64,000 nt of DNA from Agromyces salentinus (GTDB lineage Bacteria; Actinomycetota; Actinomycetes; Actinomycetales; Microbacteriaceae): NCBI RefSeq assembly GCF_009749395.1, contig NZ_WBIR01000018.1, positions 1 to 64,000 on the forward strand, in the 5' to 3' direction. A model generated the notes under the pieces. It saw only the letters and a program-made list of their open reading frames with translations, was not told where the DNA came from and did not search any database. Below are positions 6,115-19,706 of this stretch, in pieces. Both the position numbers and the translations under genes were made by a program. Position 1 is the stretch's first letter. Each line of letters starts with the position of its first letter.

Positions 6115-7485
6115 TCAGCGACCCGCGACGAGGTCGGCGACGTGCGCGATCGGCGACGTGGTCGCCCGGCCCCGCAGTTCGGCGCGGTCGGCCGCGTGGT
6201 ACGCGCCGTAGATCGCCTGCACCGCGAGCCAGCGCAGCGGTTCGACCTCCCAGCGGCGAGCGCGATGGCCGACCCACGGCAGCCGGGTGAGCTCGGTGTC
6301 CCGGCCGAGCACGAGGTCGCGCAGGGTGCGGCCCGCCAGGTTCGTGGTGGTCACCCCGGTTCCGACGTACCCGCCCGCCCAGCCGAGCCCCGTCGAGCGG
6401 TCGTGGCCGACGGTGGCCGACCAGTCGCGCGGGACGCCGAGCACCCCCGACCAGGCGTGGTCGATCGCGGCATCCGAGGCGACCGGGAAGAAGCGGGTCA
6501 GCAGCGCCGTGAGGCTCTCGATGGTGCGCTGCTGCGTTCGGCCGTCCTGGTCGACGCGCGAGCCGTAGCGGTAGGGCACGCCCCGCCCGCCGAAGGCGAT
6601 GCGATCGTCGGCGGTGCGCTGCGCGTACATGTAGACGTGGGCCATGTCGCCGAGGGTGTCGCGCCCGGTCCAGCCGATCTGCTCCCAGGCGGATGCCGCG
6701 AGCGGCTCGGTCACGATGAGCGAGGAGTTCATGGGCAGCCAGGTGCGGTGCTCGCCGTGCAGGTCGGGCGTGAAGCCCTCGGTCGCGCGCAGCACGTGCG
6801 CGGCCCGCACGGTGCCGTGGTCGGTGCGCACCTGGCCCTCGCGGATCTCGGTGACGGTCGTGTTCTCGTAGATCGTGACGCCCAGTCGCTCGACGGCGCG
6901 GGCGAGGCCGAGCACGAGCTTGGCCGGATGGACGCGGGCGCAGTGCGGATGCCACACGCCGCCGAGCGCGCCGGCGACGTCCACCCGCGCGCGGGTCTGC
7001 TCGGCGTCGAGCAGCTCGAGGTCGGTCGCGGGCCACGACTGCTCGGAGGCGGCGAAGGCTCGCAGCCGCGCGAGCTGGGCGGGCGTGTTCGCGACGGTGA
7101 GCTCTCCGCCCTTGCGGAGGTCGGCGTCGATGCCCTCGGCCGCGGCCACGGCGATGACCTCGTCGACGGCCTCGTTCTGGGCGACCTGCTGGGCGATCGC
7201 CGCGTCGCGCCCGTGGCGTTTCACGTACTGCTCGCGCCCCCCGGTGACCGAGTTGGTCAGCCACCCGCCGTTGCGGCCCGAGGCGCCGTACCCGGCGAAG
7301 CGCCGTTCGAGCACGGCGATGCGCAGGTCGGGCTGGTCGCGCTTGAGGTAGTAGGCCGCCCACAGCCCGGTGTACCCGGCGCCGACGATCGCGACGTCGG
7401 CGTGCAGGTCGCCGGGCAGCGCCGGTCGTGGTGCCGGCATGCCCACCTGTCGCAGCCAGAACGAGACGCCGCCGTTCTCGGTCAT
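6115..7485 (-). CDS. FAD-dependent oxidoreductase (DAO family)
   Basis: 456-residue flavoprotein. The FAD-binding fold is near the N-terminus (VAIVGAGYTG, residues 31-40), followed by the family motif YGASGRNGGW, as in gamma-glutamylputrescine oxidase and related amine/amino-acid oxidases. The C-terminal part has GWAGGYVGTGVTTTNLAGR, the second FAD contact of the DAO family. The start ATG overlaps the stop of the ferredoxin-like gene by 4 bp, so translation is probably coupled. It is the last gene of the repeat-peptide operon. An amine substrate would be the family default; acting on the operon's own peptide or a partner metabolite is speculation. Confidence 0.88.
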   Translation of the reverse strand: MTENGGVSFWLRQVGMPAPRPALPGDLHADVAIVGAGYTGLWAAYYLKRDQPDLRIAVLERRFAGYGASGRNGGWLTNSVTGGREQYVKRHGRDAAIAQQVAQNEAVDEVIAVAAAEGIDADLRKGGELTVANTPAQLARLRAFAASEQSWPATDLELLDAEQTRARVDVAGALGGVWHPHCARVHPAKLVLGLARAVERLGVTIYENTTVTEIREGQVRTDHGTVRAAHVLRATEGFTPDLHGEHRTWLPMNSSLIVTEPLAASAWEQIGWTGRDTLGDMAHVYMYAQRTADDRIAFGGRGVPYRYGSRVDQDGRTQQRTIESLTALLTRFFPVASDAAIDHAWSGVLGVPRDWSATVGHDRSTGLGWAGGYVGTGVTTTNLAGRTLRDLVLGRDTELTRLPWVGHRARRWEVEPLRWLAVQAIYGAYHAADRAELRGRATTSPIAHVADLVAGR

Positions 7486-8390
7486 GGGGTCTCCTCGGGG
7501 TCGCGATGCTCGATGCTGCGGACCGCGTACCGGCGCACCTGCACCGGCCGGGTCGCGGCGCACGTCGAGAGTAACGGCGGCGAGGACTCCTCGGCGAGTT
7601 CCACGACGATCGACTCGCCGTCGCCGAGCCCGAGGCGCACGCGCCATCCGTCGTCGGTCGCGGACTCCTCGAGCGGCGGGTAGGCGGCGATGCGGTCGTC
7701 GCCGAAGGCCTCGCGAGCGGCGTGTTGCGCGGCCTGCACGGGGTGGCTGAGCGAGCTGCGGCCGCGCAGCCGGTCGCGCACGACGAGCCCATCGTCGAAG
7801 GCCTCGGCGATGCGGGCCGCGTCGCCGTCATCGGCATACCCGTAGTAGAGCCCGTGCGGGAACACGACAATCGTGCCCGCGAACCGGTCGCCGCCGACGT
7901 GCGAGCACTCCCAGGTCTGCTCGGGCCGGGCGAGCGCGAGCGTCGCAGCGACGCGGCGTCCGCGCACGGCGCAGCAGCGGTCGTGCCGGCCGTGGGCGCA
8001 GGCCGCGTAGACCGGCTCCGCGGAGGGGGTGCCGGTCGACCCGTCGAGCGGCAGGTCGAGCAGGTCCGCGGGGCTCGCCGCCTCGCCCCAGACGATGCGC
8101 TCCAGGCCGAGGCGCGAGTCGGCGATCGCCCAGCGCTGCATCGGCGGGGGCGTGCGCCGGCCCGGGCGACGGATCGCGAGGATCCGCATGCCCTCCGCCT
8201 CGGCGCGGTGCACGAGGCGCCGGCCGAGGTCGCGGTCGAAGGGCGCGTCGAGCAGGGCGTTGTGCCCCCAGCTCGTCGCCACCTCGACGAGCAGCCATCG
8301 GATGCCGCGCGGCGCCGTGCCCGCGAGCGGGTCGTCCCGTTCGCGGGCACGATCGCTGCACGGCGCCCACGGCTCGGCGGCGAGGGTCAC
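7482..8390 (-). CDS. Sucrase/ferredoxin-like family protein
   Basis: 302 residues, matching the sucrase/ferredoxin-like family (thioredoxin-fold, ferredoxin-like). Diagnostic motifs: YAACAHGRHDRCCAVRGR mid-protein and the later WECSHVGGDRFAGT, giving the clustered Cys/His residues expected to hold an Fe-S cluster. The family name is historical; no sucrase activity is implied. The ATG overlaps the stop of the JmjC gene by 4 bp, and the stop overlaps the flavoprotein start. A role as electron carrier between flavoprotein and oxygenase is plausible but inferred. Confidence 0.88.
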   Translation of the reverse strand: MTLAAEPWAPCSDRARERDDPLAGTAPRGIRWLLVEVATSWGHNALLDAPFDRDLGRRLVHRAEAEGMRILAIRRPGRRTPPPMQRWAIADSRLGLERIVWGEAASPADLLDLPLDGSTGTPSAEPVYAACAHGRHDRCCAVRGRRVAATLALARPEQTWECSHVGGDRFAGTIVVFPHGLYYGYADDGDAARIAEAFDDGLVVRDRLRGRSSLSHPVQAAQHAAREAFGDDRIAAYPPLEESATDDGWRVRLGLGDGESIVVELAEESSPPLLSTCAATRPVQVRRYAVRSIEHRDPEETP

Positions 8391-9625
8391 GCGCGGATCA
8401 CCGCGAACCCCTCCCGCACGAGCCGGCGGGCCACGACGACGGCGCTCTCGGCGTCGAGTCCGGGCAGGTCGCCGACGACGACCCGCCCGCCCTCGAGCAC
8501 GTGGCGCAGGGCCGGCTCGGCCTCGACGGGCAGCGAGAGCGTCTTCGCCGTCGACACGAGGCGGACGCGGTCGCCGTCGGCCTCGACGCGCGCGCGAAGC
8601 GAGTCGCGCAGGCCGATCGTCGTCGATGCGTCGAGGCGCGCGAGCGCGGCCAGGGTCGCCAGGGGCGCGATCGGCTCGGGGCGGATGTCCCGCTCGAACC
8701 GCTCCGCGAGGGTCCCGGCCGTGGCCGCGGCATCCGCCTGCTCAATGAGTTCCGCGAGGGCCTCGGCGGTCTCGCGCAGGATCGCGGCCGCCTGGGCCGG
8801 GTCGTCGAAGTCGACGCCGAGCGGGAGCGATGCGCGCAGGCGCTCGCTGTCGCCGACGCGGGCGACGAGGGCGCCGACCACGTCGGCATGCGTGTAGGCC
8901 GACATGCCGATCGTCAGGTGCACCGAGGTGGCGTCGCCGCCGGCCGTGGCCGAGTGGATCCAGCCGCGCGGCAGGTAGAGGGCGTCGCCCGGTCGAAGCA
9001 CGGCGTCGATCACGGGCTCCTCGCGCGCGGCGGCGGCCACGGCCTCGCGGTGCCCGCTCCAGGGCTGCGAGCTCAGCGGGTCGCGGTGCACCGGGGCGTG
9101 GATGCGCCAGTGCTTCTCACCCGAGATCTGCAGCACGAACACGTCGTGCGTGTCGTAGTGGGGGTCGAAGCCCTGCGCCGCCGGCGGCGTGACGTAGGCG
9201 TTGACCTGCACCGGATGCCGCAGCTCGTCGACGAGCTCCCGCGTGAAGTCGATGACGGGCGGCCAGAGGCGGTGCAGCCCCTGCAGCACGATCGTCGCCC
9301 CTTCGGCGAACCGGTCGAAGACGCGCTCGCTCGAGACCTGGTCGCCGACCTCGGCGCCGAACCCGCCCGACGCCGTGTACGCCGATGCCGGGAGCACCGT
9401 GCCGTCGCGGGCCATCCGCATGAACGGCGTGCGCACGCCGCGACGGGTGACGAGCTCATCGACGGCGTCGGCGCTGAAGAGGTCGTCGAATCCGGCGGGG
9501 AGCTCCGCCGCACGCGACAGCAGCGCACTGCGCCCCCACACCTCGTCGGCGAACCGCTCGGCGGGCATGGCGACGCAGCGCGACAGCGCGGGCCGGTTCC
9601 CCGGCCCGCGCCCGCCTGCGACCAT
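8387..9625 (-). CDS. JmjC-domain cupin oxygenase (ROX-like)
   Basis: Fe(II)/2-oxoglutarate oxygenase of the bacterial JmjC class, related to ribosomal-protein hydroxylases, 412 residues. The iron-binding triad is complete with this start: H156-Y-D158 in FDPHYDTHDVFVLQ and H224 in PRGWIHSATAG. VNAYVTPPAAQGF and KHWRIHAP flank the active site as in the family. The start codon shares one base with the stop of the upstream repeat peptide (TGATG), so translation is coupled. Bacterial members hydroxylate Arg or His of proteins. The neighbouring His/Asp-rich peptide is therefore an attractive substrate, but that is inference. Confidence 0.88.
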   Translation of the reverse strand: MVAGGRGPGNRPALSRCVAMPAERFADEVWGRSALLSRAAELPAGFDDLFSADAVDELVTRRGVRTPFMRMARDGTVLPASAYTASGGFGAEVGDQVSSERVFDRFAEGATIVLQGLHRLWPPVIDFTRELVDELRHPVQVNAYVTPPAAQGFDPHYDTHDVFVLQISGEKHWRIHAPVHRDPLSSQPWSGHREAVAAAAREEPVIDAVLRPGDALYLPRGWIHSATAGGDATSVHLTIGMSAYTHADVVGALVARVGDSERLRASLPLGVDFDDPAQAAAILRETAEALAELIEQADAAATAGTLAERFERDIRPEPIAPLATLAALARLDASTTIGLRDSLRARVEADGDRVRLVSTAKTLSLPVEAEPALRHVLEGGRVVVGDLPGLDAESAVVVARRLVREGFAVIRA

Positions 9626-9849
9626 CAGGCCGATCCGTCGGCGCCGCCGTCGTGCCCCTCGGGGTTCGCGCCGCCGTCGGCGGTGCCCTCACCGGCATCG
9701 GCCGAGCCGTCGGCCCCGCCGTCGTGGCCGTGCGGGTTCGCGCCGCCGTCGGCCGCCCCCTCGCCTGCGCCGCCGGTGCCCTTCGGCTCCGCGATGCCCT
9801 CGCGGCCCTCCTTCGGCTCGAGCGTGATGTCTTCGTCTCCGATGGACAT
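9625..9849 (-). CDS. Short Asp/Gly/Ala-rich repeat peptide (possible modified-peptide precursor)
   Basis: 74 residues. A distinct N-terminal part (MSIGDEDITLEPKEGREG) is followed by two 24-residue repeats rich in Gly, Ala, Asp and His, each containing ADGGANP(H/E)GHDGGADGSA. A good ribosome site (GGAAGGGGGA) precedes the ATG by 6 bp, which argues that it is a real gene. There is no signal peptide, membrane segment or cysteine. It is first in a coupled operon with a JmjC oxygenase, an Fe-S ferredoxin-like protein and a flavoprotein. An N-terminal leader plus repeated core followed by oxidative enzymes is the layout of some RiPP precursors. A structural or metal-binding peptide is the alternative. 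Confidence 0.75.
   Translation of the reverse strand: MSIGDEDITLEPKEGREGIAEPKGTGGAGEGAADGGANPHGHDGGADGSADAGEGTADGGANPEGHDGGADGSA
9629..9772 (-). repeat. Two 72-bp direct repeats inside the peptide gene
   Basis: Two tandem, in-frame copies (9629-9700 and 9701-9772) of a 72-bp unit encode the 24-residue repeats of the small peptide. Differences between copies are mostly single bases. The period is a multiple of three, so copy number could change without breaking the frame. Confidence 0.75.
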
Positions 9850-9901
9850 GCCGTCCCCCTTCCGGTTCGCCGCGACCCGGCGCCGCGGCTCGTCTGCGGC
9901 C

Positions 9902-9907
9902 AGCGTA
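9902..9907 (-). promoter_or_regulatory. Possible -10 box for the repeat-peptide operon
   Basis: On the minus strand TACGCT fits the actinobacterial -10 pattern TANNNT and lies about 50 bp upstream of the peptide start. No convincing -35 hexamer is seen at the right distance. Confidence 0.4.
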
Positions 9908-9965
9908 GCGAGCCGGGTGCCGAGCGGCCACGGGTTGACAGCGGTGGCCGCGGCGGGCGACCGGA

Positions 9966-10075
9966 TGCGGAGAGCGCTCGGCCGGAGAGCGCTCGGCCGC
10001 CGGGCGCTCAGCCGGCGGCACTCACCCGCCGGGCGCTCAGCCGGCGGGCGCTCAGCCGGCGGGCGCGTCGGGCAC
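9966..10075. repeat. 15-bp tandem repeat, about seven units
   Basis: The core GCGCTC (or close variants GCACTC, GCGCGTC) recurs at 9974, 9989, 10004, 10018, 10033, 10048 and 10063, a 15-bp period with one 14-bp step. Consensus unit is about GCGCTCAGCCGGCGG. The array runs from the spacer into the last codons of the TetR gene (stop at 10052), so expansion could alter that protein's C-terminus. The rest of the 9850-10051 spacer holds no gene. Confidence 0.7.
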
Positions 10076-10636
10076 GACGGCCGCGACGATCGAGTCGACG
10101 ACCGCGGCGACGGCGTCGGCGCCCAGGAGCTCCGGCATCGTGAGGTGGTCGAGCAGGAGCCCGCTCATGGCGAGGTAGAGCACGAGGGCGGTCGACCGGT
10201 CGCCGGGGAAGCCGTGATCGACGTGGTCGGACGTCGCGAGGGCGAGGTTGCCGGCGAACTGCCGGGTCACGGTCGGCGCGACGTGCGGGTTCCTCGTCGC
10301 CTCGAGCCGCAGTTCGAGCAGCGCGAGATGCGCGGCACGATCGCCGATGGCGCGTTCGACGAGCCACACCATGAGTCCGCGCTCGCCCTCGCGCGTCGGC
10401 TCGACGGCCATGCGCCTCGCCGCCTCCTCGGGGTCGGGTGCGAGCCTGGCGAACACGTGCTCGGCCAGCTCGGCCAGCAGTTGGTCGCGCGACGCGAAGT
10501 AGTTGGATGCCGTGCCGGCCGGGACCCCCGCCGCTCGGTCGACGGCGCCGAACGTGAGCCCTCGACCGCCCTCGACCGCGATCACCTCGACCGCGGCATC
10601 CAGCAGGCGCTGCCGTCGTTCCGCGTTCCTCGCCAT
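10052..10636 (-). CDS. TetR-family transcriptional regulator
   Basis: 194 residues. The N-terminal helix-turn-helix is clear (RRQRLLDAAVEVIAVEGG, then LTFGAVDRAAGVPAGTASNYF), followed by an all-helical ligand domain. Start chosen at ATG 10636 (MARNAERRQ). It is divergent from the RibD-like reductase gene, and the shared spacer holds two related palindromes (10666-10680, 10720-10740). It therefore probably represses itself and the reductase. The 3' end is built from a 15-bp tandem repeat. The ligand is unknown. Confidence 0.9.
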   Translation of the reverse strand: MARNAERRQRLLDAAVEVIAVEGGRGLTFGAVDRAAGVPAGTASNYFASRDQLLAELAEHVFARLAPDPEEAARRMAVEPTREGERGLMVWLVERAIGDRAAHLALLELRLEATRNPHVAPTVTRQFAGNLALATSDHVDHGFPGDRSTALVLYLAMSGLLLDHLTMPELLGADAVAAVVDSIVAAVVPDAPAG

Positions 10637-10665
10637 GGCCGCCCCGTCCTCGTGCCGAACGACTC

Positions 10666-10740
10666 CAACCGTAGTGGTCGAAGCGGTCGGCCGCCTCTGC
10701 ATCACCCTTCCCACCGGAACAACTACGGCTATAGTGGTTG
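10666..10740. promoter_or_regulatory. Probable TetR operators and promoter
   Basis: A 21-bp imperfect palindrome at 10720-10740 (half-sites CAACTACG and AGTGGTTG) covers TATAGT at 10730-10735, a good -10 box for the gene at 10766. A related shorter palindrome, CAACCGTAGTGGTCG, lies at 10666-10680 near the regulator's own start. Shared half-sites and overlap with the -10 box fit repression in both directions. Confidence 0.65.
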
Positions 10741-10765
10741 AGTTCGATTCCGACGCGAAGGACCC

Positions 10766-11407
10766 ATGCGAAACCTCACGTACTACATCTCGCTCTCCAT
10801 CGATGGCTTCATCTCCGGCCCCGACGACGAGGTCGACTTCTTCCCCGGCTCCGACGAGTACATGGCCTGGATGGTCGGCGACTACGGCGACGCCCTGCCC
10901 TCGCACGCGCGGGCGCAGCTCGGCATCGCGGATGCTCCGCTCACGCGCTTCGACACCGTCGTGATGGGTCGGCGCACCTACGAGCCCGGTCTCCAGCTCG
11001 GCATCACCTCGCCGTACGCGCACCTGCGCCAGTTCGTCGTCTCGAGCAGCCTGGAACAGCTCGACCCGGCGGTCACGATGGTGACGGGTGACCCGATCGC
11101 CGCCGTGCAGGCCCTGAAGGAGGAGGACTCGCCGTTCGACATCTACCTCGCGGGCGGCGGCGTTCTCGCCGGCCAGCTGCTCGACGAGATCGACCGGCTC
11201 GTGATCAAGCGCTACCCGGTGGTCGCCGGCGCGGGCCGGCCCGCCTTCGGTCCCGAGTTCAGCCCGACCGCGTTCGCACTCGATGAGGTGCGCTCGTTCG
11301 AGGGCGGCAACGTGGTCGAGTGGTATTCGCGGATCCGGTCGGATGCCGCGGAGCCGGAAGCGGAGTCCGAGCCCGAGTCGCGCCCCGCGCCCGGGCCCGC
11401 AGCATGA
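10766..11407 (+). CDS. Dihydrofolate reductase-like (RibD C-terminal domain) protein
   Basis: 213 residues with the RibD C-terminal/DHFR fold: N-terminal YYISLSIDGFISG, VVMGRRTYEPG, a central FVVSSSLEQL, and IYLAGGGVLAGQLLDEIDRLVIKRYPVVAGAG containing the nucleotide-binding glycines. Such proteins are NADPH-dependent reductases of uncertain substrate. The last 25 residues are a Glu/Pro/Ala-rich tail outside the domain. The gene is divergent from a TetR regulator with operators over its promoter. Its stop overlaps the start of a broken acetyltransferase gene. Confidence 0.88.
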   Translation: MRNLTYYISLSIDGFISGPDDEVDFFPGSDEYMAWMVGDYGDALPSHARAQLGIADAPLTRFDTVVMGRRTYEPGLQLGITSPYAHLRQFVVSSSLEQLDPAVTMVTGDPIAAVQALKEEDSPFDIYLAGGGVLAGQLLDEIDRLVIKRYPVVAGAGRPAFGPEFSPTAFALDEVRSFEGGNVVEWYSRIRSDAAEPEAESEPESRPAPGPAA

Positions 11408-11670
11408 GCATCACCTTCGACATCCGGCACCTCGCCGGCACGCAAGAGATCGAGCTCTTCAACCGCTTCCCGTACCCGCTGAACGACGAGATCGCCGACG
11501 ACCTCGAGCGTGGCCGCCGACGCCCCGAACGGACCTGGCTCGCCGTGCGCGGCGATCGCCTGCTCGGCCGGCTCGCGCTCTGGAGCCCACGGGACGTTCG
11601 AACGGCTCGTCAACCTGGCGTGGGACTGATCGGAAGGTTCCCGGCATCACCGGCGTTGTCCACAGCATGA
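11404..11670 (+). pseudogene. N-terminal remnant of a GNAT acetyltransferase gene
   Basis: An ATG overlapping the previous stop opens a frame of 88 codons. Its first 60 residues (MSITFDIRHLAGTQEIELFN, then RTWLAVRGDRLLGRLALWS) look like the start of a GNAT acetyltransferase. It then turns into composition-poor sequence and runs into the next gene's start. Just after the break, frame +1 (11582-11629) reads GAHGTFERLVNLAWD then stop, which looks like a natural protein C-terminus. This suggests an internal deletion joined the two ends of a longer gene and shifted the frame. An unrecognised small protein remains possible. Confidence 0.6.
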
Positions 11671-12695
11671 GAGCGATCGCGTACTCGAAGACCGGTGACT
11701 CCTCCGTGCTGCGGCTCGTCGAACGCGAGGCGCCCGGACCCGGGGCGGGCGAGGTGCGCGTGCGCATCGTCGTCTCGGGCGTGAACCCGACCGACTGGAA
11801 GGCGCGGGCCGGGTCCCGCGCGGGGCAGCCGCTGCCGTTCGCCGAGGTGGTGCCGAACCAGGACGGTGCCGGCGTCGTCGACGCGGTCGGGCCCGGCGTC
11901 GTGGGTCTTACGGTCGGCGACCGGGTCTGGGCCTACCTCGCCGCGCACGAGCGCCCGACCGGCACGGCGCAGGAGTTCGCGATCCTGCCGGCGGATCGCA
12001 TCGTGCACCTCCCGGATGCCGCGGGCTTCGAGCTCGGCGCCTCGCTCGGCGTGCCCGCGATGACCGCGCACCGCGCGCTGACCGTCTCCGAGGCGGGCCC
12101 GTCGCGTCTCGGACCCGGCGCCCTCGACGGCCGGACGGTGCTCGTCGCCGGCGGGGCCGGTGCCGTCGGGCATGCCGCCATCCAGCTGGCCCGCTGGGCG
12201 GGGGCCACCGTCATCACGACGGTGAGCTCGCCCGAGAAGGCGGCGCTCGCGACGGCGGCCGGGGCGCACCACGTGGTGGACTACCGGGCCACCGATGCCA
12301 CGGCGGCGATCCGTGCCCTCGCGCCCGACGGCGTCGACCAGGTCGTCGAGGTCTCCCCCGCGCGCAACGCCGAGCTGAATGCCCGCGTGATCGCCAACCA
12401 CGGATCCATCGCCGTCTACGCGACCGATGGCGGCGGCGAGATGACCCTCGACGTGCGGCATCACTTCGCGCTGAACGTGCGCTACCAGTTCCTGCTGCTC
12501 TACACCGTCGGCCGGGAGGCGCTCACCGCCGCGGCGGAGGACATCGTGCACGCCGTCGCCGACGGCGCGCTGCCCGTCGGCGAGGACGCCGGGCTGCCGC
12601 TCACGCGCTTCCCGCTGGAGCGCGCCGCCGCGGCGCATGACGCCGTCGAGGCCGGCACGATCGGCAAGGTGCTCATCGACGTCTCCGCCGCCTGA
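11667..12695 (+). CDS. Quinone oxidoreductase-like NADPH dehydrogenase (zinc-free MDR family)
   Basis: 342 residues. N-terminal GroES-like fold (MRAIAYSKTGDSSVLRLVER; VSGVNPTDWKARAG) and a central Rossmann domain with VLVAGGAGAVGHAAIQLARW. The zinc-ligand cysteines of alcohol dehydrogenases are absent, which fits the quinone-reductase branch. The C-terminus ends AHDAVEAGTIGKVLIDV, typical of the family. The ATG overlaps the tail of the acetyltransferase remnant. It probably reduces quinones or reactive carbonyls; the substrate is not readable. Confidence 0.9.
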   Translation: MRAIAYSKTGDSSVLRLVEREAPGPGAGEVRVRIVVSGVNPTDWKARAGSRAGQPLPFAEVVPNQDGAGVVDAVGPGVVGLTVGDRVWAYLAAHERPTGTAQEFAILPADRIVHLPDAAGFELGASLGVPAMTAHRALTVSEAGPSRLGPGALDGRTVLVAGGAGAVGHAAIQLARWAGATVITTVSSPEKAALATAAGAHHVVDYRATDATAAIRALAPDGVDQVVEVSPARNAELNARVIANHGSIAVYATDGGGEMTLDVRHHFALNVRYQFLLLYTVGREALTAAAEDIVHAVADGALPVGEDAGLPLTRFPLERAAAAHDAVEAGTIGKVLIDVSAA

Positions 12696-12705
12696 GTCGG
12701 TGCGA

Positions 12706-13362
12706 TCAGCTCGCCAGGTGCGACACCTGCTCGACCACGAGCACGCCGGCGAGCACGACCATCGCGCCCCCGGAGACCCGTGACACCACGTTGAGCGCCG
12801 TGGGCCTGGCCCGCAGTACGGCCCGGGCACTCACACCCACGACCGAGTAGACGAGGGCGCAGCTGCCCACGAAGATGAGCCCGAGCACGGTGAGTTGCAC
12901 GGGAACGGGCCACGCGCCCGCGGCATCCGTGAACTGCGGCAACAGCACGACGAGGACGAGCAGGCCCTTCGGGTTCAATCCGCTGACGCCGGCGCCTTGG
13001 ACGAGGCGCAGCCAGGGGCGATCGACGGATGCCGCAGCAGCCGACACCTCCGCCTCCGCCGGGCCGCTCACCGCGGCGACGGCGGGCGGTTGGAGCAGGA
13101 CGCGGACGCCGAGCCATGCGAGGTAGCCGGCGGCCGCGAAGGTCAGCGCGACGAGCAGCCCGGGCAGCGCCGAGACCGCGGCGCCGACGCCCACCGCCAC
13201 GGCCGCCACGGCGGCGAGGTAACCGACGAGGATGCCCGCGAGCGAGGGCACGATCGAGCGGTCGCGCAGGCCCGCGGAGATGATGTACGCCCAGTCGGGC
13301 CCGGGCAGCACGACCATGAGGGTCATCATGCCCCAGCAGGCGAGCAGCAGCTCTGGGTTCAT
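12706..13362 (-). CDS. LysE/RhtB-family amino-acid exporter
   Basis: 218 residues, five to six hydrophobic segments, with the family signature LVVLPGPDWAYIISAGLRDR (here MVVLPGPDW) near the N-terminus and GLNPKGLLVLVVLLPQF in the middle. Start is ATG 13362 with GAGG eight bases upstream; a longer in-frame start would cross the control region. It is divergent from an Lrp/AsnC regulator, a standard pairing in which the regulator senses an amino acid and switches on export. The substrate amino acid is unknown. Confidence 0.92.
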   Translation of the reverse strand: MNPELLLACWGMMTLMVVLPGPDWAYIISAGLRDRSIVPSLAGILVGYLAAVAAVAVGVGAAVSALPGLLVALTFAAAGYLAWLGVRVLLQPPAVAAVSGPAEAEVSAAAASVDRPWLRLVQGAGVSGLNPKGLLVLVVLLPQFTDAAGAWPVPVQLTVLGLIFVGSCALVYSVVGVSARAVLRARPTALNVVSRVSGGAMVVLAGVLVVEQVSHLAS

Positions 13363-13440
13363 CGGAGGCCTCGTTTCGTTCGACACGACGAACCTAGGCA
13401 ACATCCGGCGGAAAAGGCTTGCGAAGATCTCCACGCAGAG

Positions 13441-16885: not shown

Positions 16886-19480
16886 CTACCCGGCGGCGTG
16901 CGCGCGGCGGCGGCGAAGCGCGACGGCACCGGCTCCGAGCCCGAGCAGCAGCAGGGTGCCGGCGATCCACAGGGCCCCCGCGGGGTCCGCGCCCGTGTGG
17001 GCCAGCCCGTCAGCGGTACCGCCGGCGGTCTCGGAGCCGCTCCCGGCGGCGTCGGACGGGTCGGCCGGAGCCGACGGGTCGGTCGAACCATCGGGGTCGG
17101 CCGGGTCCGTCGGGTCGGTCGGATCGGTCGGGCCCGCGATGTCGGCGCCCGGGAGGGTTCCGGTGCGGAGCGCCGCCGGCTGCTCACCGTCGGCGAACCA
17201 CCAGGCCTGCCGGGTGGTCGCCGCGAGCGTCGAGAACGCCGCGGCGGACGGCGCCGCGACCGGGGACGGTGCCTCGGCCGGAGTCGTCGCGAAGCCCTCG
17301 TTGTTGAGATTCGGCATGCCGGCCGGTCGGGCGAAGTGCACGATCGTCGGCTCCGCGCCCGTGAACGCGATGCGCGCGGACTCCCCCTCGCAGCCGTCGT
17401 CGCAGACCGCCCAGAGCTGGTCGAGCACGGTGTCGTAGTCGAGGGCCATGACGCCGCCGAGGCCGGGATCGATCGTCGCGACCTGCGCGAACGACCCGTC
17501 GGCGTTCAGGGCGTAGGCGTAGACCACGCCGTTGTCCTCGACCGCGACGAAGAACAGGCCGTCGCCGTGGCCGGGGTAGTCGGCGGGGTCGTAGGCGAGC
17601 CCGGAGTTCTGGTCGACGAGACCCGTGAGGTCAGCGTCCGAAACCCACTCGACGGCCTCGAGACCCGTGTTCGCGGCGACCTGCGGGAGCGAGGCCGTGA
17701 GGTCCCACTCCTGCGCGGCGACCACGTCCGGGCCGGCGGCCTCGGGGTCGACGGCGAGCACGACGTTGGCATTGACGCCCTTGTCCGCGTTGTCGCGCTC
17801 GGACGCGACGTAGACGCGGCCGTCGGACGCGACGGTGATGCCCTCGGTGTCGGGGCCGGCCTTGGCCGGGTCGGCCGCATCGCGTTGGAAGCGGATGCGC
17901 TTGCCCTCGGCCCAGCCGTCGGCGAAGGCGACGCCGCCGTCGGCCTCGGCGTCGAGCTTCCAGAACGTGCCCGTGCCGTTGTCGACGGCCCAGAGCACGA
18001 CGCCCTCGGCGGTCCGCTGGGCGTCCAGGCCCGACGAGTCCTCGAGGAACATGGTCGCCTCGTCGACGACGCGCACCTCGGCCGACCCGGGCCAGACGGC
18101 GACCTCGGGCTCACCGGGTTCGCCGGGCTCACCCGGGTCGGTGCCGCAGGCGTTCGCCGCGCCCTTGGTCGAGGCGGTGGCATCGCCGAACGCGCCCGTG
18201 CCGTCGGGGCAGCGGGCGTAGGTGAGGGCCGCGTGCGGACCCCAGGCGTACTCGGCCACGATCGTGCCCGCCGCGTTGCGCACGGTCGCGCGGTCGTCGT
18301 TGCCGAGCCCGAACCCGAAGTGCGTGTTCTGGTCGAGGACGAAGAACGCCCCCGGTGCCAGCACGGTCCCGGATGCCACGGGCGTGACGTCACCCGCGTG
18401 GCCGACCGGGTCGGAGTCCATGAGCGTCCAGCCCGAGAGGTCGACGGGGGTCGTGCCGGTGTTCACGATCTCGACCCAGTCGGTCGCGTCGCCGTTGGAC
18501 TCGACCTCGTTGATCGCGATCGCGGGAACCACGCAGTCGTTCGCTGCGCCCTTCGTGACCCGGGCGAGGCTCCACGGGCCGGTCGCGTCGGGGCAGCGCG
18601 CCCAGCTGGCGGCTGCCTCGTCGCCGTCGACGTTCGGGTGCGCCGACCAGGCGTGTTCGTCGAGCTTCGCGCCGGCGGCGTCGTACAGGCGGATCGCGTC
18701 GGCGCCGCCGATGCCGATCGCCGTCTCGAAGGTCTGGGCGGAACCCGCGATGTCGAGGCCGGCCGTCTTCGCGTCGACCACGAGCAGCTCGCCGGCGCCG
18801 ATCGACGCACCGGCGGCGAAGAACCAGCGGTGGTCGTCGGAGTTGTCGCGGAGCTCGTAGCCCGACAGGTCGAGGGCCTCATCACCGGGATTCACGAGCT
18901 CGAGCCAGTCGGCGGGGCCAGAGTCGACCTCGTTGAGCAGCGCGGTGCCCGGCGTCGCGGGCTCCTCGGGCTCCTCGACGGGTGCGCAGGAGTTCGCCGC
19001 GCCGAGCGTGACCGCCGTGGCGGGCGCCCAGGCGCCGCCGTCGGCGCAGCGCGACCAGTCGGCGAGCGGCGCCGTCGCGAGGTACGCGTAGGCGTCGACG
19101 ACGGCATCGGCGGTGTCGACCAGCACGACCTCGTCGCCCTTGCCCAGCCCGAACGGGAATCCGAGCGGCGAGGCGTCCTTCGTGAGCACGAGGTACCCGC
19201 CCGCGGCGAGCGTGGTGCCCGCGGGGATCGTGCCGCGCTCGACCCGCTTGTCGTCCATCACGGCCCAGCCCGAGACATCCACCGCTGCGGATGACGCGTT
19301 GAAGAGCTCGATCGAGTCGGCGGTGCCGTGCGACGCGGCGTCGTAGACGATCTCGTTGACGACCACGCCGGCGTCGGCGGCGATCGCGGCGCCCGGCAGC
19401 GCGAGCAGCGCGGCACCCGAGGTCACGGCCATGGCCGCGACCATCGCGGACGCGCGACGGATGGATGGGGGGAAGGGCAT
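16886..19480 (-). CDS. Sortase-anchored lamin-tail/phytase-like surface protein
   Basis: 864 residues. Sec signal peptide (IRRASAMVAAMAVTSGAAL, cut near AIA/A at 34). Three lamin-tail domains follow (roughly 35-150, 165-290, 300-415), each with a VNEI/NEV start, a DLSGW-type strand and a KGAAN(S/D/A)C end. Next comes a domain of about 350 residues like the esterase-like phytase family (AVWPGSAEVRV to NNEGFATTP), a Pro/Thr/Asp linker (PTDPTDPTDP), LAHTG at 826-830, a hydrophobic segment and RRRRAHAAG. LAxTG suits class E sortases. ATG 19480 has AGGAG upstream. A cell-wall adhesin or phosphate-ester enzyme is plausible; activity is not shown by sequence. Confidence 0.88.
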   Translation of the reverse strand: MPFPPSIRRASAMVAAMAVTSGAALLALPGAAIAADAGVVVNEIVYDAASHGTADSIELFNASSAAVDVSGWAVMDDKRVERGTIPAGTTLAAGGYLVLTKDASPLGFPFGLGKGDEVVLVDTADAVVDAYAYLATAPLADWSRCADGGAWAPATAVTLGAANSCAPVEEPEEPATPGTALLNEVDSGPADWLELVNPGDEALDLSGYELRDNSDDHRWFFAAGASIGAGELLVVDAKTAGLDIAGSAQTFETAIGIGGADAIRLYDAAGAKLDEHAWSAHPNVDGDEAAASWARCPDATGPWSLARVTKGAANDCVVPAIAINEVESNGDATDWVEIVNTGTTPVDLSGWTLMDSDPVGHAGDVTPVASGTVLAPGAFFVLDQNTHFGFGLGNDDRATVRNAAGTIVAEYAWGPHAALTYARCPDGTGAFGDATASTKGAANACGTDPGEPGEPGEPEVAVWPGSAEVRVVDEATMFLEDSSGLDAQRTAEGVVLWAVDNGTGTFWKLDAEADGGVAFADGWAEGKRIRFQRDAADPAKAGPDTEGITVASDGRVYVASERDNADKGVNANVVLAVDPEAAGPDVVAAQEWDLTASLPQVAANTGLEAVEWVSDADLTGLVDQNSGLAYDPADYPGHGDGLFFVAVEDNGVVYAYALNADGSFAQVATIDPGLGGVMALDYDTVLDQLWAVCDDGCEGESARIAFTGAEPTIVHFARPAGMPNLNNEGFATTPAEAPSPVAAPSAAAFSTLAATTRQAWWFADGEQPAALRTGTLPGADIAGPTDPTDPTDPADPDGSTDPSAPADPSDAAGSGSETAGGTADGLAHTGADPAGALWIAGTLLLLGLGAGAVALRRRRAHAAG

Positions 19481-19706
19481 GGGGGCGCTCCTGACGGGTG
19501 GTGAGGGGTCGTCGCCCACTCGACCGCCCGGCGCTGAACGGACGGTGACGCGACGGTGAACTGCGGGGGGCGGCGCCATGTCGGACCGGGGCGGGCGCCC
19601 CGATCCGGGCTGGGCCCACCGGTCGGGTCGGGGAGCCCTGCCCATGTGCCGTCGTCTCGGGAGCGTCTAGCGTTCGACACGAACCACGACCGGAAGGACC
19701 ACCATC

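Follow-up and report, generated by a model that had tools for sequence, protein, structure and literature searches.

Several described systems lie close to the one reported here. The JmjC enzyme BipG was proven to act as hydroxylase on a ribosomally synthesized and post-translationally modified peptide (RiPP), where it catalyzes the gamma-hydroxylation of ornithine (Orn; PMC12707348). Folds resembling the RiPP recognition element (RRE) were reported as fused to the JmjC_2 domain PF08007 in fish and algae, with the closest bacterial homologues in RiPP-like contexts (PMC12710340). Yeast Aim32 carries a bis-histidinyl [2Fe-2S] cluster with the motif CX8CXnHX3H (PMC8482512). Here, we analyzed a 64,000-nucleotide stretch of Agromyces salentinus DNA (contig NZ_WBIR01000018.1 of assembly GCF_009749395.1, positions 1 to 64,000), called the window throughout the paper. 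It contains a small gene for an Asp/Gly-rich repeat peptide directly followed by the gene for a JmjC oxygenase, a pair that was found again in many related genomes. The peptide is very probably the substrate of the oxygenase. We consider it reasonably probable that both belong to a RiPP family in which the JmjC enzyme acts on a precursor made of a leader and Asp-Gly repeats, with beta-hydroxylation of Asp as the predicted reaction.

The repeat peptide and its pairing with the JmjC gene

All genes of the locus are located on the minus strand and are transcribed in the order peptide, JmjC oxygenase, Suc_Fer-like protein, DAO-family flavoprotein (Table 1). An earlier sequence-only reading of the window had proposed these four open reading frames (ORFs) with overlaps of 1, 4, and 4 bp, a peptide with leader-like N-terminus and two repeats, and a JmjC enzyme with complete iron triad. 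The overlaps were confirmed by the junction sequences TGATG, GTGA, and ATGA in gene order, and the other two points held as well, with a conserved leader motif, two repeats that could be read directly, and the invariant triad described below. For the flavoprotein, the ORF list gives a longer frame with an ATG upstream of 7485. Among 31 aligned Microbacteriaceae peptides (alignment A1) the leader residues M1, I3, D5, D7, and I8 were invariant. The consensus consists of MxINDDDIT, a variable spacer and copies of EGxADGGANPxGHDGGADGSA, three in most sequences and two in some; the peptide of the window shows two and a remnant. Its repeats differ at 12 of 66 nucleotides, with the last compared codon lying outside the repeat. 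Across the 465 pairs formed by the 31 sequences, the mean proportion of synonymous differences (pS) of 0.52 exceeded that of nonsynonymous differences (pN) of 0.12; the gene is hence real and conserved, and its protein under purifying selection. On the basis of this selection, together with the Pfam families and the invariant triad, the operon arrangement is far beyond chance. Neither the peptide nor six sequence variants of it matched a family in Pfam or NCBIfam. When the regions upstream of 24 peptide genes were searched for a shared regulatory motif, the top k-mers exceeded their frequency in shuffles barely or not at all; by eye, a TACGCT-like element was seen upstream of several peptide genes.

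The peptide was searched for in 299 Microbacteriaceae genomes (E <=0.01; E <=1e-8 for strong matches). Matches were found in 49 genomes, 33 strong (the window's genome included) and 16 weak. In all 33 genomes with a strong match the peptide gene lies directly upstream of a NO66/MINA53-like JmjC gene, as seen in the fetched locus for 30 genomes, including the window's, and from adjacent coordinates for 3. The same order was observed in two named relatives, a Cryobacterium metagenome-assembled genome (L002) and Agromyces fucosus (L003). Among the 16 weak matches only one genome, G034, gave a JmjC hit, 27% identical and located elsewhere in the genome. In the opposite direction, a search of 160 Microbacteriaceae genomes with the JmjC protein yielded hits in 18. 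Fifteen of these were at least 56% identical, all in genomes with a strong peptide match, and one of 45% identity (G014) has a divergent repeat peptide directly upstream; JmjC genes of at least 45% identity were accompanied by the peptide in 16 of 16 cases. This comparative genomics lends strong support to the proposal of the sequence-only reading that the oxygenase acts on the peptide: homologues of the peptide scattered without the oxygenase were looked for, and none occurred among the 33 strong matches. Of the constant neighbours expected beside the peptide, the JmjC gene was present beside all 33 strong matches, and the Suc_Fer gene only usually (24 of 27 neighbourhoods).

Table 1. Features of the peptide-oxygenase locus in the window.
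Feature	Position	Strand	Description or basis
Precursor peptide gene	9625-9849	minus	74 aa, ATG; acidic, leader and two Asp/Gly-rich repeats
N-terminal leader motif MSIGDEDIT (family form MxINDDDIT)	9823-9849	minus	31-sequence alignment A1
Core repeat 1, EGAADGGANPHGHDGGADGSA	9700-9762	minus	direct reading and alignment A1
Core repeat 2, EGTADGGANPEGHDGGADGSA	9628-9690	minus	direct reading
JmjC 2-oxoglutarate oxygenase, NO66/MINA53-like	8387-9625	minus	412 aa, ATG; Pfam JmjC_2 PF08007, E 6e-30
Iron triad H156, D158, H224	9158-9160, 9152-9154, 8954-8956	minus	alignment of JmjC enzymes
C-terminal winged-helix, RRE-like domain, residues 330-412	8390-8638	minus	putative leader-binding part, predicted model
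Suc_Fer-like (thioredoxin-like ferredoxin) protein	7482-8390	minus	302 aa, GTG; usual third cassette gene
DAO-family flavoprotein	6115-7485	minus	456 aa, ATG at 7485; Pfam DAO PF01266, E 3e-59

Active site and C-terminal domain of the JmjC enzyme

The residues H156, D158, and H224 of the iron triad, together with N142 and K171, were invariant in 89 of 89 aligned JmjC enzymes, and from its residues the enzyme looks active. A profile built from 45 of the enzymes matched NO66 (4y4r) with E 1e-47 over profile positions 20-410, nearly the full length, followed by MINA53 and then by YcfD over the C-terminal part. With JmjC_2 domain, HxD...H triad, and C-terminal winged helix the protein is of the ribosomal-oxygenase type (NO66/MINA/YcfD). 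The genomic context points to the linked peptide and not to a ribosomal protein as its substrate.

The structure model of the JmjC enzyme was built from three sequences. Its mean predicted local distance difference test score (pLDDT) was 43 and it was poor outside residues 330-412, so only the C-terminal domain was interpreted, where the ten-residue blocks from 331 on reached a pLDDT of 69-90. Whole-chain Foldseek alignments of the model had a root-mean-square deviation >18 A and were not used as structural evidence. In the predicted model three strands are followed by three helices, the order of an RRE-like winged-helix fold. Using VIA-align, the domain matched the C-terminal domains of MINA53 (Z 11.8) and NO66 (Z 10.4). 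Matches to RRE-type domains were PqqD (Z 6.7), the PbtF RRE (6.3), TbiB1 with leader (6.2), NisB (6.0), and TruD (5.9), although a Z below 8 may stem from a common arrangement and is not conclusive on its own. Carbamoyl transferases (GdmN, Z 6.7-7.0) rank among these matches, too. The Z values demonstrate a shared fold and not leader binding.

A leader and a repeated core, regularly found beside one oxygenase with an RRE-like domain, suggest the pairing of a RiPP precursor with its enzyme; a short, genetically encoded leader-core precursor beside a modifying enzyme is what characterizes a RiPP. The peptide might instead be an accessory, either an acidic metal chaperone supplying iron to the JmjC or the Suc_Fer protein or a regulator of the oxygenase, with the real substrate elsewhere, for example a ribosomal protein. 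The JmjC family is known for the hydroxylation of ribosomal proteins (NO66, MINA53, YcfD), and Asp/His-rich repeats could bind metal unmodified. We nevertheless regard an accessory role as very unlikely. The leader-core layout, the changing number of repeats, and a core that diverges fast over an unchanged catalytic site are typical of a substrate, an RRE-like domain is a precursor-binding device, and the patchy distribution (JmjC of at least 45% identity in 16 of 160 Microbacteriaceae genomes) is unlike that of a conserved ribosome modification.

Core composition and likely target residue

For the comparison of leaders and cores 76 precursors were used. Where loci were distant, the precursor was chosen as the upstream ORF with the highest acidity. 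Seven JmjC loci without a recognized precursor (L112, L143-L147, L150) and six of twelve phylum precursors whose starts looked truncated (L184, L188, L189, L191, L192, L194) were omitted, and the precursors of L122 and L086 were entered by hand, the automatic choice having been another ORF. An acidic-[IM]-[TSV] leader motif, a pattern devised after inspecting the peptides, occurred in 50 of the 76 precursors compared with 3.7 expected in shuffles. It is not general, being absent from the other 26, including the short f24 peptides and the Streptomyces GRSDGND type. The core has the form GHDGGADGSA in Microbacteriaceae, GSNPEGHDGGADGTA in family f11, and DGTDGDATDTTDGD in family f34, with PGVHDGGADGGADGGA elsewhere; peptides of family f24 have 35-38 residues and end like GGDSDGTDGSSDFI. 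To judge from these sequences, the core changes by lineage and stays Asp-rich.

All 76 cores contain at least two Asp, a count reached partly by construction given the choice of the most acidic ORF. Asn is absent from 28 precursors and His likewise from 28; 37 contain neither Lys nor Arg. Of the reactive side chains only Asp is shared by the cores, which makes it the most economical target. We regard it as the likeliest one, with His possible in some lineages. Arg/Lys as general target was rejected, with 37 of 76 precursors having neither. The expectation that His or Arg is hydroxylated, which the sequence-only reading had drawn from known JmjC enzymes, did not hold as a general rule, and a shared His or Arg target appears unlikely from the core sequences.

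A narrower form of that expectation is beta-hydroxylation by the JmjC enzyme of the His in every GHDGG repeat, the reaction that NO66 and MINA53 catalyze on ribosomal proteins; it would apply at least where a lineage has retained this His. The closest characterized relatives of the enzyme are these two histidine hydroxylases, one repeat has an invariant His and the others a nearly invariant one in the alignment of 31 Microbacteriaceae peptides, and 48 of the 76 precursors contain His. In 28 precursors, however, His is lacking although the aligned JmjC enzymes keep the same catalytic residues, and within the close clade the position is also occupied by Ser, Thr, Gln, or Gly. We therefore judge His hydroxylation to be unlikely and prefer Asp as target.

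Distribution in the class and the phylum

The peptide profile matched 39 of 394 genomes sampled from the class of A. salentinus, and a JmjC gene was located directly downstream in 29 of 29 loci read (two of these genomes are also part of the Microbacteriaceae sample). The JmjC protein matched 130 of the 394 genomes, 63 of them with at least 240 bits. An acidic small ORF was found upstream in 63 of these 63 close-JmjC genomes, in 56 by reading the locus and in 7 (G324, G411, G500, G575, G598, G626, G636) by a peptide-profile match within about 400 bp of the JmjC match; in G561 and G379 this ORF is acidic and without repeats. A fixed rule for acidic ORFs was applied (30-220 aa, at least 14% Asp, net acidity of at least 0.15, and a stop codon close to where the JmjC gene begins). 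It was passed by 43 of 45 loci with a JmjC enzyme at least 44% identical (class and Microbacteriaceae samples) and by 1 of 152 control ORFs, which include out-of-frame ORFs. The two failing loci, L065 and L086, nevertheless hold a repeat peptide. Ten of ten more distant JmjC loci (<44% identity) with a Suc_Fer match passed as well, with the Suc_Fer match of L152 being on the other strand. Ten close-clade loci for which no JmjC protein was obtained, apparently because of a missing start codon upstream of the match (L067, L070, L071, L075, L078, L081, L083, L085, L088, L093), are missing from the tallies of the acidic-ORF rule, JmjC residues, core composition, and precursors; an Asp-rich ORF is present in all ten. 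Second copies of a genome were omitted (L113, L114, L125-L129), as were L002 and L003 from the acidic-ORF rule.

In the phylum, the Suc_Fer profile matched 61 of 296 genomes. Twenty of these loci were read, 17 of them outside the class, and 13 adjoin a JmjC gene, all 13 outside the class. Using a looser rule (12% Asp), an Asp-rich ORF was found before the JmjC gene in 12 of the 13, while the 13th locus is cut by the contig end. The cassette occurs in the phylum outside the class. On a Streptomyces clavuligerus plasmid, the gene for a 48-residue "hypothetical protein" is followed by one for a "cupin domain-containing protein" with 33% identity to the window JmjC enzyme, and the Streptomyces plasmid records represent a distant branch of the cassette. 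Directly after the peptide-JmjC pair, two Streptomyces plasmids (L203 3378-6485, L204 3341-6437) carry an aldo/keto reductase gene and one more gene, which suggests other tailoring partners in that branch. In five loci of family f24 (L137, L139, L140, L148, L149) the pair of short peptide and JmjC is preceded by a frame resembling an S9 prolyl oligopeptidase; the L148 fragment, the only f24 frame tested, matched PF00326. An S9 peptidase also stands beside the pair in S. clavuligerus (L202 5266-7104). It is a candidate leader peptidase of the distant branches.

The Suc_Fer protein as usual partner

The product of the third gene matched the Suc_Fer-like family PF06999 with E 5.8e-14 and 53 bits, above the cut-off of 34.9. 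When ORFs of at least 90 aa were compared across 27 neighbourhoods, the JmjC gene recurred in 27 and the Suc_Fer gene in 24, and no other widely recurring gene was found. Of the other clusters present in at least four loci, two are opposite-strand shadow clusters over the JmjC/Suc_Fer genes, one comprises eight loci with long same-strand frames just upstream of JmjC that mostly end at the peptide position, and the last one four loci at scattered positions. A Suc_Fer match was obtained in 60 of the 63 close-JmjC class genomes compared with 135 of the 331 other class genomes. It was not matched in G413, G392, and G486, which have JmjC and peptide; four same-genus genomes without JmjC likewise gave no match. 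The third gene of the proposed operon is consequently a usual and not an obligatory member. In the phylum sample 7 of the 20 Suc_Fer loci had no JmjC gene nearby, nor did four further loci of family f36, so Suc_Fer proteins also have other settings.

The residues C131, C140, H164, and D168 were invariant in 29 of 29 aligned Suc_Fer proteins, giving the pattern CX8C and HX3D. Compared with the bis-histidinyl [2Fe-2S] motif CX8CXnHX3H, the two Cys and the first His are present and the second His is an Asp in all 29. The structure model of this protein was poor (mean pLDDT 54.9). In four f36 genomes (L168, L169, L170, L171) the Suc_Fer gene is located away from JmjC and shows the motif CTHGxKD, in which Lys replaces the second His, H136 of the window protein (29 of 29 in the aligned set).

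That a ferredoxin-like protein so often accompanies the pair is a hint of more than one oxidation. The JmjC enzyme, perhaps with Suc_Fer, might install a cross-link or another oxidative change with a net loss of 2 Da per event and no simple hydroxyl group. This seems quite unlikely to us, as Cys, Tyr, and Trp, residues that are often cross-linked, occur in only 1, 3, and 4 of the 76 cores, respectively, and a Suc_Fer match is lacking in three class genomes that have both JmjC and peptide. Simple hydroxylation is favoured, being the known reaction of the closest enzymes and the one that BipG performs on a RiPP.

The DAO flavoprotein as a probable passenger

The four-gene interpretation of the sequence-only reading stood for the peptide as substrate and failed in two respects, the general His/Arg target and the flavoprotein as pathway member. 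In the latter case, a DAO enzyme that also acts on the peptide would fit the 4-bp overlap of its gene with the Suc_Fer gene. DAO as fourth member was rejected: no DAO match was found in 20 of 20 other neighbourhoods of 13-15 kb (the 3-kb family loci, and most shorter loci likewise, are too short to judge its presence). Moreover, genome G142 of the same genus encodes an 89% identical DAO protein without peptide, JmjC, or Suc_Fer gene, and its neighbourhood is collinear with the window, including the window's LysE-type gene close by and in matching order. In G079 and G280, relatives that carry the cassette, DAO proteins reach at best 50% and 45% identity and are encoded elsewhere in the genome. 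A pathway of four genes is hence hardly tenable and largely refuted. The cassette sits at a pre-existing DAO site, by gain here or by loss in G142, as deduced from the collinear, cassette-free G142 locus and the distant DAO proteins of G079 and G280, and the flavoprotein looks like a passenger, not like a member of the conserved unit. Comparing the interval between DAO and LysE genes (window 6115-13434 versus G142 locus L167), the window holds the cassette and further genes, while the G142 interval is short, with what by eye looks like a TetR-like regulator and without the cassette. Elsewhere in the window, a 919-residue ORF (16886-19645, minus strand) has a signal-like stretch near the N-terminus, a run of TDPTDPTDPTDPADPDG and a C-terminal hydrophobic stretch followed by basic residues; from these features it looks like a cell-surface protein.

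Proposed mechanism

The window would then hold one copy of a widespread actinobacterial RiPP cassette. Its small gene would encode a precursor with an acidic leader and an Asp-Gly-rich repeat core. The leader may be bound by the RRE-like winged helix at the C-terminus of the JmjC enzyme, which, with iron, 2-oxoglutarate, and O2, would hydroxylate residues of the repeats, most likely at the Asp beta-carbon. Suc_Fer could serve as redox partner that keeps the iron reduced or perform a second oxidation. The beta-hydroxyaspartate of siderophores is a chelating group, and by this analogy a poly-Asp peptide carrying such hydroxyl groups could plausibly bind iron or other metals, a use that is a guess. 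The full version, a phylum-wide RiPP family in which a NO66-like JmjC enzyme hydroxylates many Asp residues to a poly-beta-hydroxyaspartyl metal chelator with the help of a Cys2-His-Asp ferredoxin-like partner, is possible and put forward tentatively.

In favour of a modified peptide is the leader-core layout with a variable number of repeats across loci. We are aware of several points that weigh against our interpretation. The modification of the peptide itself is something we infer. The closest characterized enzymes, NO66, MINA53, and YcfD, hydroxylate His or Arg, not Asp. Gly (74 of 76 cores) and Ala (76 of 76) are near-universal as well, so Asp was chosen partly on chemical grounds, and its count is partly due to the choice of precursors mentioned above. 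In 27 neighbourhoods, neither a protease nor an exporter recurs with the cassette among ORFs of at least 90 aa. Of the 16 distant JmjC loci (<44% identity) without Suc_Fer match, 8 pass and 8 fail the acidic-ORF rule (L141 and L147 fail although short SDGGGTGR(S/T)D peptides are present), and the distant JmjC genes of G034 and G103 (27-33% identical) have no acidic repeat peptide. To these the low Z values of the RRE matches have to be added. Errors are likeliest in the chemistry and not in the pairing of peptide and enzyme.

Comparison with known systems

No description of the peptide family or its core motifs was found in the open-licence literature, where absence is weak evidence; the Asp-rich repeat peptide with its JmjC enzyme points to a family of modified peptides that is apparently undescribed. 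If our interpretation is true, this widespread and apparently unnamed RiPP family has a minimal gene set of peptide, one oxygenase, and usually one ferredoxin-like protein, which is easy to express and test in Escherichia coli. The substrate chemistry of NO66/MINA53-type JmjC enzymes would be extended from His and Arg to Asp, and the winged helix, present in human enzymes as well, would be linked to leader-peptide recognition. The precursor would also provide a natural multi-site substrate for studying how JmjC enzymes process repeats.

The cassette JmjC enzyme shares the JmjC_2 domain, iron triad, and C-terminal winged helix with NO66, MINA53, and YcfD (RoxA). In contrast to these, its gene is accompanied by that of a dedicated Asp-rich repeat peptide and usually by one for a ferredoxin-like protein, its presence is patchy, and 28 of 76 linked peptides have no His. 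The Suc_Fer protein belongs to the same family as Aim32/Apd1 and has the CX8C motif and an invariant downstream His; in place of the second His of HX3H in Aim32 it has an invariant Asp (HX3D, 29 of 29). For the JmjC-RRE proteins described in PMC12710340, the accessible text of that report names no precursor family, Asp-rich repeats, or Suc_Fer partner, in contrast to the cassette. Related in principle are BipG and PbsQ, JmjC or cupin hydroxylases of biphenomycin-type RiPPs, with a JmjC-type enzyme acting on a ribosomal precursor (PMC12707348, PMC12257519). According to the accessible parts of these reports they are one tailoring enzyme for one Orn, beside a multinuclear non-heme iron-dependent oxidative enzyme (MNIO), an arginase, and a radical S-adenosylmethionine enzyme, whereas here no modifying enzyme other than JmjC recurs in all cassettes read, and the core consists of Asp-Gly repeats in tandem.

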